From Desulfurococcales archaeon (lineage in GTDB: Archaea > Thermoproteota > Thermoprotei_A > Sulfolobales > NBVN01): a DNA stretch of 64,000 bases. The DNA is taken from assembly GCA_023255955.1 (NCBI GenBank), contig JAGDWD010000003.1, positions 1-64,000 on the forward strand, in the 5' to 3' direction. Positions 7,771 to 11,827 of the stretch are shown one piece after another. How positions within the stretch are numbered: the first letter of the stretch is position 1; each line of letters begins with the position of its first letter. The translations under genes and the position numbers were made by a program. Under the pieces are notes generated by a model. The model made no database searches, was not told where the DNA came from, and worked only from the letters and a program-made list of their open reading frames with translations.

Positions 7771-8922
7771 GTGGGGGAGATTCAGGTCCCGGACCACATA
7801 GTCCAGTGCGTTGTTTGCGGTGCCAGGTTTCGCAGTAATCTGTTACTTCATAGGGGGTACTGCCCTAGGTGTGGGGGTATCGTTACCGTTAGGTATGAGG
7901 GTCTCTCGTTTAGGGTTGACCCATCTGGTCCCGGTATCTGGCGGTACGCATCACTCCTCCCCGCTGTCGGTGCTAGGGTATCGCTAGGTGAGGGTCTGAC
8001 ACCTATTCAGAAGCTCGGGGAGGTTCTGGTGAAGAACGAGCGAGCTAATCCGACGGGCTCTTACAGTGATCGTGCGTCGGCACTCATAGCTTCCTACATT
8101 GCTAGCGTGAGGGCCGGTGCTGTAGCTACCCCCTACGTAGAGGACTTTACTAGGTCCCTACTCTACTACCTATCGCATGCTGACCACATAGGTAGGTTCA
8201 TCGTGGTGGTTTCGGACGTGCTCTCAGTTCCTTCTGAGGATGTCCTGTACTTCATCTCGAAGGGAGTTGAGGTCGTGAGGCAGCTGAGTCCGACAGCCAA
8301 CTTCGTAGAGGTTGACTATCTTAACCCCCTAACTATCGAAGGCCTCAAGACGATAGTCTTAGAGATCTACGAGGAGGGGGTTGAAGTAGACAGTGTAGTA
8401 GTACCTGCTGAGACAGGCCTCCTAGCATTCTCGATCTGGAAGGGGATTCAGGACCTGAAGGAGCTCGGATATGAAGCTAACTACGAGGTGGTGGCAGTCC
8501 TGGTCGGTGAACGGGACGTACCTAACATCATCTCGATGACCCGTGACATACGTGTTGTGAGGGTCTCCGATGAGGAGGCCTATGAAGCCACTAAGAAGCT
8601 CCTAGGGAAGGGAATTAAGGCTAAGCCCCTCTCAGCAGCTAGCTACTACATAGGGGAAAACCTCGGGAGGTCTATCGCAGTCATCACAGCAGGCTTTAAA
8701 CAGCCAGCTAGGGGTAGGTACGTAAGCGAGGTGAGGAAGGTAGTGAGGGAGGTACTATCGAGGAAGTCCCCCCTGACTGCCTATAACATATGGAAGGAGA
8801 AACCCGTCTTCACATTGAGGGGAATATACAGAGCCGTTAAGTCCATGGAGCAGAGTGGTGAACTCTGCTACGAGGTCTCCTCCCACGGTAAGAGAAAGAT
8901 CAAGCTATACTACCTATGCTAG
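7771..8922 (+). CDS. threonine-synthase-like pseudoenzyme with C-terminal winged-helix-like domain
   Basis: The N-terminus has the zinc-ribbon of archaeal threonine synthases (CVVC at 13-16, CPRC at 31-34) and the family stretch SLGEGLTPIQKL at 71-82. Where active enzymes have NPTGSFKDR with the PLP Schiff-base lysine, this protein reads NPTGSYSDR (93-101), so Ser99 replaces lysine. The Gly/Ser-rich phosphate loop after it is also unlike the family (AVATPYVEDFTRS). The last ~60 residues (SPLTAYNIWKEKPVFTLRGI, then AVKSMEQSGELCYEV) look like a winged helix. I infer loss of catalysis and possible reuse as a ligand-sensing regulator. Start GTG 7771. Confidence 0.75.
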   Translation: MGEIQVPDHIVQCVVCGARFRSNLLLHRGYCPRCGGIVTVRYEGLSFRVDPSGPGIWRYASLLPAVGARVSLGEGLTPIQKLGEVLVKNERANPTGSYSDRASALIASYIASVRAGAVATPYVEDFTRSLLYYLSHADHIGRFIVVVSDVLSVPSEDVLYFISKGVEVVRQLSPTANFVEVDYLNPLTIEGLKTIVLEIYEEGVEVDSVVVPAETGLLAFSIWKGIQDLKELGYEANYEVVAVLVGERDVPNIISMTRDIRVVRVSDEEAYEATKKLLGKGIKAKPLSAASYYIGENLGRSIAVITAGFKQPARGRYVSEVRKVVREVLSRKSPLTAYNIWKEKPVFTLRGIYRAVKSMEQSGELCYEVSSHGKRKIKLYYLC

Positions 8923-9339: not shown

Positions 9340-11016
9340 TTAGAATATCTCAGGTGCTCTCCACTCTCCCCAGACTTCCCTGAGGACTCTGCTGATTTCA
9401 CCTACCGTAGCGCCTACTTTAACGGCCTCATATATCGGTGGGAAGATATTGACTTCCTCTTTCTCAGCTGCTTTTCTGACGTTGTCTAGGGCTGTCCTGA
9501 CCTTGACCTGATCCCTACTCTCCCTGAACTTCCTTAGCCTGCTAACTACCCTCTCCCTAGCTGCTGGATCAACCTTCAGTATCTTCACCTTAGGTATCTC
9601 AGGCTCTACAAACATGTTGATTCCTACGATAGGAATCTCACCCTTCTCTACCTTTAACTGCCACTCGTAGGCTGCCTTAGCTATCTCCCTCTGCGGGTAC
9701 CCGAGCTTTACAGCCCTCAGCATACCACCCATCCGCTCTATCTCGTCAATGTACTTCCAGGCCCTCTCCTCGATCTGGTCAGTTAACCACTCAATGTAGT
9801 AAGCACCGCCTAGTGGGTCCACAGTATCGACGACTCCGGACTCATAGAGTATTACCTGCTGAACCCTAACTGATAGCTTCACTGACTCCTCGGTCGGTAA
9901 GCAGAGGGCTTCGTCGTAGGAGTTTACGTGGAGTGACTGTGTTCCTCCTAATACGGCTGCTAGTGCCTGGAGGGTGGTCCTAATTATGTTTACCATGGGT
10001 TGCTGAGCTGTTAGTAGGACACCAGCTGTCTGGGTGTGGAACCTGAGCATCATTGACCTCGGGTCCTTAGCTCCGAACCGGTCCTTCATTACCTTAGCCC
10101 ATATCCTCCTAGCTGCCCTGAACTTCGCTATCTGCTCGAAGAGGTTTGTCCTAGCCGCAAAGAAGAAGGAGAGTCTCGGGGCGAAGGAGTCTACTGGGAC
10201 CTTACCCCTCTCCATTACCCACTTAACGTACTCCATACCGTCAGCTATGGTGAAAGCTACCTCCATAGCTGGGGTGGCACCGGCCTCCTCCATGTGGTAG
10301 CCGCTTATACTTATCGAGTTCCACTTGGGCATCTCCTTAGCTGCGTAGAGTATTAGGTCTACTGAGTATCTCATGGAGGGCTCCGGCGGGTATATGTAGT
10401 TGTTCCTAGCTATGTACTCCTTCAGTATATCGTTCTGTACGGTCCCGTCTAGAACGGCTTTGGGGACCCCCCTAGACTCAGCTACCGCAACATACATCGA
10501 CAGTATCTCTATGGCTGTCGCGTTTATGGTCATGGAGGTCGAGATCTTATCCATAGGTATGCCACTGAAAACTATGTCCATCTCCTGGATAGTCGGCATT
10601 GAGACACCGACCTTACCTACCTCATACCAAGCTAGTGGGTCGTCAGGGTCGTAGCCGAGCTGGGTCGGTAGGTCGAAAGCCATGCTGAGGCCTGTCTGCC
10701 CTATGCTGAGTAGGTACCTATACCTCTCGTTAGTGTCCTCGGCAGAGCCGTAGCCAGCGTACTGCCTGATGGTCCACGGCCGCCCTCTATACATTGTTGG
10801 ATATACTCCTCTAGTGAACGGGTAGGTCCCCGGGAAGCCGAGCTTCTCCAGGTAGTCCCACTTCTCTAGGTCTAAGGGGGTGTAAAGCCTCTTTACTTCT
10901 ATACCCTCCTCAGTCAGGAAGACCTTCTTCCTCTCAGGTGCTTTCTTCAGTAGGGGCTCTACTACCTCCTTCTCCCACTCAAGTAGCTTCTCCCGAATCT
11001 TCTCCGAATCACTCAC
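9340..11016 (-). CDS. mcmA1: methylmalonyl-CoA mutase, large (catalytic) subunit
   Basis: A 558-residue catalytic subunit that, with the B12 subunit, interconverts (R)-methylmalonyl-CoA and succinyl-CoA. Family motifs include PFTRGVYPTMYRGRPWTIRQ, YAGYGSAEDTNERYRYLL, GLSMAFDLPTQLGYDPDDP, ISGYHMEEAGATPAMEVAF and SLHVNSYDEALCLPTEES. The cobalamin domain is absent here and is encoded separately (11417-11827), as usual in archaea. The GTG start at 11016 overlaps the stop of the epimerase gene by 4 bp. A MeaB/ArgK-type chaperone GTPase is not in the window. Confidence 0.95.
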   Translation of the reverse strand: MSDSEKIREKLLEWEKEVVEPLLKKAPERKKVFLTEEGIEVKRLYTPLDLEKWDYLEKLGFPGTYPFTRGVYPTMYRGRPWTIRQYAGYGSAEDTNERYRYLLSIGQTGLSMAFDLPTQLGYDPDDPLAWYEVGKVGVSMPTIQEMDIVFSGIPMDKISTSMTINATAIEILSMYVAVAESRGVPKAVLDGTVQNDILKEYIARNNYIYPPEPSMRYSVDLILYAAKEMPKWNSISISGYHMEEAGATPAMEVAFTIADGMEYVKWVMERGKVPVDSFAPRLSFFFAARTNLFEQIAKFRAARRIWAKVMKDRFGAKDPRSMMLRFHTQTAGVLLTAQQPMVNIIRTTLQALAAVLGGTQSLHVNSYDEALCLPTEESVKLSVRVQQVILYESGVVDTVDPLGGAYYIEWLTDQIEERAWKYIDEIERMGGMLRAVKLGYPQREIAKAAYEWQLKVEKGEIPIVGINMFVEPEIPKVKILKVDPAARERVVSRLRKFRESRDQVKVRTALDNVRKAAEKEEVNIFPPIYEAVKVGATVGEISRVLREVWGEWRAPEIF

Positions 11017-11420
11017 TTCTTCTCCACCCTAGTCATTATCTCTAGTAGTACTCCGAAGGTGTTTTTGGGGTGTATGAAGTTTATCTTCCTCTCACCGTGA
11101 GATACTGCCCGGGGCTTGTCGTAGGTTAGTGTGACCCCCTTAGACTTAAGCTCCTCAGTCTTCGCATCAACATCGTCTACGTGTATGGCTATGTGGTGTA
11201 TCCCCTCCCCGCGCTTCTCAATGAACTTACTGACTGCTGACTCCGGGTCAGTACCCTGTAGGAGCTCTATGTAGACGTCGCCGACCCTGAACATAGCTAT
11301 CCTTACCTTCTCCTCCGGTACCTCCTCAAGCTTAACCAGCTCAAGACCTAGTATGTCCCTGTAGAACTTTACGGCCTCATCTAGGTTCTTCACAGCTACA
11401 CCTATGTGGTCCAACCTCAC
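11013..11420 (-). CDS. mce: methylmalonyl-CoA epimerase
   Basis: This 135-residue vicinal-oxygen-chelate protein epimerises the (S)- and (R)-forms of methylmalonyl-CoA, feeding the mutase next to it. It begins RLDHIGVAVKNLDEAVKFYR, with the metal-binding His of the first beta-alpha-beta unit, continues with the second metal His in GIHHIAIHVDDVDAK, and ends with FIHPKNTFGVLLEIM carrying the Glu ligand. It lies between the B12 subunit and the catalytic subunit, overlapping each by 4 bp (GTGA), so all three should be translationally coupled. Confidence 0.93.
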   Translation of the reverse strand: MRLDHIGVAVKNLDEAVKFYRDILGLELVKLEEVPEEKVRIAMFRVGDVYIELLQGTDPESAVSKFIEKRGEGIHHIAIHVDDVDAKTEELKSKGVTLTYDKPRAVSHGERKINFIHPKNTFGVLLEIMTRVEKK

Positions 11421-11827
11421 TGTGCCTCACCTACAGCCTTCTTAAATATCTCTACTACCTTTGATAAAGGTGTTCCAGGCATTAGGACTTCGAAGACTCC
11501 CAGCTCCTTGAGCCTAGGTATGTCCTCCGGTGGTATCACACCACCGACAATTATGGGTGCTCTAACACCCCTCTCCCTAGCTATCCTCATCAGGTCTGAG
11601 ATAAGCTCCTCGTGACTACCTGACAGTATGGACACACCAATCGCCTCCACATCCTCCTCTAAAGCAACTCTAACTAGATTCTCCGGGGACTGATGCACCC
11701 CGAGGTAGACAACCCTGAACCCAGCATCGCGGAGCGCCATCGTGATGACCTTAGCCCCCCTATCGTGACCGTCAAGCCCTAGTTTAGCTACAAGTACCTT
11801 CCTTCTAACGGCCTTCTCCTGGCTCAA
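11417..11827 (-). CDS. mcmA2: methylmalonyl-CoA mutase, small (cobalamin-binding) subunit
   Basis: A 136-residue B12-binding domain. KLGLDGHDRGAKVI contains DxHxxG, whose histidine is the lower axial ligand of cobalamin; ISILSGSHEELISDL and IIVGGVIPPEDIPRL match the remaining nucleotide-binding loops. It forms the holoenzyme with the catalytic subunit downstream. It is the promoter-proximal gene of the mcmA2-mce-mcmA1 operon, starting at TTG 11827. A TATA box (CCTATATTTTTC, 11857-11868) puts the transcription start about 9 nt before the TTG. Confidence 0.94.
   Translation of the reverse strand: MSQEKAVRRKVLVAKLGLDGHDRGAKVITMALRDAGFRVVYLGVHQSPENLVRVALEEDVEAIGVSILSGSHEELISDLMRIARERGVRAPIIVGGVIPPEDIPRLKELGVFEVLMPGTPLSKVVEIFKKAVGEAQ

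Follow-up and report, generated by a model that had tools for sequence, protein, structure and literature searches.

A threonine synthase-like protein lacking the Schiff-base lysine

The window analysed here is a stretch of 64,000 nucleotides from the genome of a Desulfurococcales archaeon (G000). An open reading frame on its forward strand, at 7771–8922, opens with a GTG codon immediately 3' of an in-frame TAG and encodes a protein of 383 residues, whose features are as follows.

7771–8922, + strand: threonine synthase (ThrC)-like pseudoenzyme with a C-terminal winged helix, predicted vitamin B6 regulator (383 aa)
7807–7872, + strand: N-terminal zinc ribbon, Cys13/16...31/34 (all four Cys invariant across 29 orthologs)
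8047–8073, + strand: NPTGSYSDR loop, residues 93–101, with Ser99 (8065–8067) in place of the Schiff-base Lys (from sequence and alignment)
8134–8169, + strand: YVEDFTRSLLYY, residues 122–133, in place of the PLP-binding SSGN loop (F126, S129 and Y133 invariant)
8404–8430, + strand: altered phosphate-binding loop PAETGLLAF, residues 212–220 (P212 and G216 invariant)
8701–8727, + strand: flexible linker, residues 311–319 (pLDDT below 50 at 312–316)
8728–8919, + strand: predicted winged helix (helix-helix-helix-wing), residues 320–383 (AF2 secondary structure; TAYEIW...YTLRGVYKALKSME conserved)

The body of the protein matches the PALP family of fold type II enzymes (PF00291; 72.6 bits against a gathering cut-off of 35), and its top Foldseek matches are all ThrC (2zsj, 1uin, and 6nmx, E about 1e-14). 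Its scores fall below the cut-offs of both the threonine synthase model TIGR00260 (31.4 bits, cut-off 167) and the NCBIfam threonine synthase model PRK05638 (89.6 bits, cut-off 421). As an earlier note on this DNA had read from the letters, the Schiff-base lysine is missing, the phosphate-binding loop is altered, and the zinc ribbon is kept. The loop runs N93-P-T-G-S-Y-S99-D-R, and the lysine column is occupied in the family by S, A, T, V, or M and in no ortholog by K. The note's remark that the overall length was kept holds for the total, which is similar to that of ThrC, but this near-normal length arises because internal deletions, the largest of about 25–35 residues, offset an added tail of 60 residues.

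The PLP “asparagine loop” reads YVEDFTRS in the 383-residue protein, as compared to SSGN in L002, a second ThrC-like protein encoded by the same genome in which the lysine is kept. Comparison of the 29-ortholog alignment with ThrC revealed a new conserved motif, [YF]xxDFxxS, at this former cofactor loop. Other residues are retained in the family, namely T306 (the Thr of the C-terminal “TxG” motif) and K88, E90, N93, D100, and R101. A substitute PLP lysine was sought, and the invariant K88 and K193 sit in motifs common to lysine-bearing ThrC, so neither looks like a replacement. A recent pseudogene was also rejected, since the family is conserved with intact open reading frames and the sole broken copy is in G069.

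The lysine-less family and its distribution

A search of the genome contigs with the single window protein as the query gave no match, and a search with the family alignment as the query gave 80 loci. Of 98 related genomes, about one third encode an ortholog whose alignment runs to the end of the protein. The set gathered here includes about 50 archaeal proteins of the predicted regulator family, none of which has the Schiff-base lysine. Phylogenetically, the window family forms a single group of 48 with strong support, with hosts in Desulfurococcales/Sulfolobales, Acidilobaceae, Fervidicoccus, Methanomethylicales, and some bins labelled Nitrososphaerota. The earlier note had proposed a search for homologues lacking the lysine and a comparison of their gene neighbourhoods; the search recovered such orthologs as a conserved family, and the neighbourhoods are compared below. 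Because all orthologs lack the lysine and carry the tail, the two features are not a chance occurrence.

Among 116 unique ThrC-like proteins, the lysine is absent in 76 (including L163, which is N-terminally truncated and poorly aligned), all 76 with a winged-helix-type C-terminal extension, while it is kept in 40, of which only six bathyarchaeal proteins carry a tail of this kind; the set was collected by similarity, and these counts are therefore no unbiased census.

A predicted winged helix at the C-terminus

The C-terminal ~60 residues had been taken for a winged helix, and the AF2 structure prediction agrees. The model, built with the 29-sequence alignment, has a mean pLDDT of 90 and a disordered hinge at 312–316. 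Its tail contains helices at 320–331, 337–343, and 349–361 followed by strands at 365–372 and 375–382, which matches the helix-helix-helix-strand-strand topology of winged helices across residues 320–382. Profile comparisons gave weak matches, to HTH_11 for the 383-residue protein (16.7 bits against a cut-off of 25, E 0.007) and, in the PDB, to a Fur protein alone for the profile of alignment A3 (E 0.0097). The predicted winged helix is among the best-conserved regions of the regulator, as judged from the 29-ortholog alignment and the invariant columns of A3.

Genes for vitamin B6 acquisition are the conserved neighbours

When flanking open reading frames were clustered and identified by curated models, the commonest neighbours of the regulator were PdxS and PdxT, which make up the PLP synthase. 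Both gene orders were seen, REG-pdxS-pdxT and pdxS-pdxT-REG. In G011 (L059, identical to L130), the regulator adjoins ECF S, A, and T genes, and the S component belongs to PF07155, the Pfam family of the pyridoxine transporters PdxU and PdxU2/HmpT (PMC9997740). Among genomes that are at least 95% complete, ecfS is present in 21 of the 27 that lack pdxS and in 10 of the 31 that bear it (Fisher p 0.0007, uncorrected for phylogeny); across genomes, one of the two genes tends to stand in for the other.

The earlier note had placed the protein directly downstream of a gene for a Cys/Met-family PLP enzyme and had suggested a ligand-responsive regulator of threonine/methionine metabolism. A regulator of this kind would sense Thr, Met, or O-phosphohomoserine. 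Both the ThrC ancestry and this neighbour speak for such a role. The gene does lie upstream on the same strand, at a distance of 157 bp, but it was seen beside the regulator in the window only, so the neighbour is not conserved. Also beside the regulator, at 9340–11827 on the minus strand, genes for a methylmalonyl-CoA mutase large subunit, an epimerase-like glyoxalase, and a B12-binding subunit lie in a row.

A predicted operator accompanies the proposed regulator

Upstream of pdxS at regulator loci we found a palindrome, TTGAACGTTCAA. It is present within two mismatches at all 29 distinct pdxS promoters of regulator-linked loci, and perfect at 15 of them, although pdxS promoters share descent and the 29 are therefore not independent. 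The box keeps a fixed spacing from the TATA box: it is followed by YAA, four bases, and the T of an AT-rich TATA-like stretch at +19 in 27 of 28 cases. By our own count, about 0.01 such site per promoter would be expected by chance. None of 27 pdxS promoters from regulator-free genomes has the box.

The box also occurs in trans, before pdxS genes unlinked to the regulator in three genomes (G005, G003, and G011) and before unlinked ecfS genes in four (G038, G057, G067, and G073). Seven further ecfS genes that are unlinked to the regulator, in genomes that carry it, lack the box, as do all nine ecfS promoters of regulator-free genomes. When a 20-base pattern, GAACGTTCNNYAANNNNTWW, was scanned across 98 whole genomes, it was found in 22 of the 32 regulator genomes, mostly 35–60 nt before pdxS, ecfS, or an importer, and in 4 of the 66 regulator-free genomes, where all five matches fall inside open reading frames. 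Among the exceptions, the regulator genome G071 has no box at up to one mismatch, and G085 has a doubtful box only. On this co-occurrence, TTGAACGTTCAA is the predicted operator of the regulator, and we infer that the protein binds it. The proposal that a pseudoenzyme has turned into a regulator with a winged helix thus gains support from the universal lysine loss, the AF2 model, and a family-specific operator.

The operon position with pdxST would also suit a protein that is still an enzyme, or an accessory factor of PdxST (e.g., a carrier of PLP from PdxST), with the box belonging to some other regulator. PLP could be retained without the lysine, as fold-type II enzymes can still hold it when their lysine is mutated to Ala. 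However, the presence of the box tracks that of the regulator both in trans and where pdxS is missing, and the winged helix belongs to the most conserved regions; we consider such a role quite unlikely and prefer that of a regulator acting through the box.

Candidate importers in genomes without pdxS

The genome of the window (G000, 1.64 Mb, 97% complete) has no pdxS and no matching ecfS. Its sole full-pattern match, with one mismatch to the box, lies at C5:87638–87657 on the coding strand before genes for an SBP_bac_8/6/11 solute-binding protein and an ABC permease. In the congener G003, the box is found 43 nt before a 74%-identical ortholog of this solute-binding protein, and in G005 it precedes a partial homolog. 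The predicted target of the regulator in G000 is this unlinked ABC importer operon, with a single candidate site. A second one-mismatch match in G000, at C5:3177, lies in a repeat array resembling CRISPR (L265, C5:1500–3200) and was set aside as chance.

In G063, which lacks both pdxS and ecfS, a perfect box stands at an SBP/permease pair and a further match precedes an aminotransferase–MFS pair, and G078 has one-mismatch boxes before an MFS gene and an amino acid permease gene. From their boxes, the following genes are candidates for new vitamin B6 importers.

L274:1650–2867, L275:3250–4143, L276:3036–4412, L261:1157–4322, and L264:38–3135: transporters with the box upstream (MFS, amino acid permease, and ABC importers), from genomes in which both pdxS and ecfS are absent

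Proposed function and mechanism

The assignment to the threonine/methionine branch is not supported by these data. The conserved neighbours and the operator-bearing genes are pdxST, the PF07155 ECF transporter, and importers, i.e., genes of B6 acquisition. In addition, no box precedes the Cys/Met gene in the window, where just two sites with two mismatches occur (2233 and 39463), which is chance level. We regard a threonine/methionine regulator as most improbable. The first of the two sites, TTGATCGTTCAT at 2233–2244, lies 3 bp before a MATE transporter open reading frame starting at 2247 and is statistically a chance match.

We think it highly likely that the protein at 7771–8922 binds DNA and regulates the acquisition of vitamin B6 (PLP) in Thermoproteota of hot springs, and that it is composed of a ThrC body that no longer forms a Schiff base and a winged helix. 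We further infer how it might act. A dimer of the regulator would bind the palindrome, which immediately precedes the BRE/TATA in the promoters of its targets, presumably pdxST, the PF07155 ECF transporter, and other importers. The B6 pool would be sensed through PLP, or a different B6 vitamer, held non-covalently in what was once the active site. As for the sign of regulation, we favour, without regarding the matter as settled, an apo form that activates and PLP that relieves the activation as in bacterial PdxR, because the box directly adjoins the upstream edge of the BRE and pdxST is activated by apo-PdxR in bacteria. A position just upstream of the BRE is usual for archaeal activators. In bacteria, PLP is the anti-activator of pdxST activation by apo-PdxR (PMC5320631).

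The SSGN and phosphate loops, which hold PLP in ThrC, are gone in the regulator family, and this counts against PLP as the ligand. With these loops replaced, and [YF]xxDFxxS conserved instead, the regulator of B6 genes could sense another molecule, either a substrate of PdxST (ribose 5-phosphate, glyceraldehyde 3-phosphate, or glutamine) or an amino acid that reports PLP-enzyme activity. However, the box is also found before importers in genomes without pdxS, so that end-product sensing fits better than sensing of a PdxST substrate. In addition, T306 and the K88/E90/N93/D100/R101 set are retained. We judge another ligand to be unlikely, though with an appreciable chance, and keep a B6 vitamer as the preferred signal.

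In a wider reading, which we hold with fair but limited confidence, a PLP-sensing transcription factor would have arisen independently in Archaea from a fold-type II PLP enzyme through loss of the lysine and addition of a C-terminal winged helix. The family would belong, as a single branch, to a wider radiation of “threonine synthases” that control B6 uptake and have R, I, V, F, or Y in place of the Lys, and the regulon of the family would expose unknown B6 transporters (ABC, MFS). In the non-subscription literature searched, we found no earlier description of a ThrC-derived or archaeal B6 regulator, or of the box. If true, this would provide a vitamin B6 regulator for Archaea, where MocR/PdxR are reported to be absent (PMC5320631), and B6 regulators would have been built twice in evolution, from unrelated PLP enzymes. 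The predicted operator also points to specific B6 importers, a kind of gene that, according to PMC9997740, has yet to be found in many organisms.

Related lysine-less proteins

A number of PRK05638-type proteins with a C-terminal winged helix lie beside PF07155 ECF S/A/T genes, with the lysine changed to R (L090–L092, L178, L184, L185, and L187), I (L096 and L097), or Y (L094). The proteins of these three kinds that adjoin an ECF set are 430–470 aa long. They are probably misannotated regulators, which flags the “threonine synthase” annotations of the PRK05638 type. The sequences upstream of ecfS in L092, L178, L184, L185, and L187 have in common a palindrome-like element that differs from the box, roughly AAAGTTnTTCTTAAAGnAnAAACTTTA, immediately ahead of the TATA region, and this element is a candidate operator of the K-to-R class. 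The ecfS promoters L226, L230, L233, L234, and L236, from genomes of family f2, contain repeated TTCGATTA-like elements followed by AAGCTTA. Several f2 genomes with these elements carry K-to-I proteins, and the elements are possibly another class-specific operator. In Chloroflexi/Anaerolineae, ThrC-like proteins of ~710 aa (L200 and L202–L206) keep the Lys and are extended at the C-terminus by a region similar to a response-regulator receiver domain.

Comparison with known systems

The regulator shares the zinc ribbon and the PALP fold with ThrC (TIGR00260), but it lacks the Schiff-base Lys, its cofactor loops are altered, an internal segment is lost, and its scores are far under the cut-offs. 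By the features tested, it is a descendant of ThrC and no threonine synthase. With PRK05638-type proteins it has the C-terminal winged helix in common, while those found here have Arg at the Lys column. The bathyarchaeal proteins L169, L172, and L177 likewise combine a ThrC body with a C-terminal winged helix and adjoin a PF07155-like EcfS gene; however, they keep the lysine (NPTNSFKDR), are ~470 aa long, and lie elsewhere in the tree. Their state is possibly similar to the ancestral one of the lysine-less regulators.

In PdxR, the GntR winged helix is N-terminal and the body, a fold-type I aminotransferase, keeps its lysine, whereas the regulator has a C-terminal winged helix, a fold type II body without the lysine, and an archaeal host. 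No Pfam match to MocR/PdxR domains was found in the 383-residue protein. The likeness to PdxR (MocR/GntR, Bacteria) lies in the pairing of a PLP-enzyme-derived sensor with a winged helix and in the genes under control, which for PdxR are pdxST and B6 uptake genes (PMC5320631). The operator predicted at pdxST and B6 uptake genes would therefore be a functional parallel to PdxR rather than a sign of MocR membership. By this analogy, the regulator would work like PdxR with another fold, in the opposite domain order, and in another domain of life.
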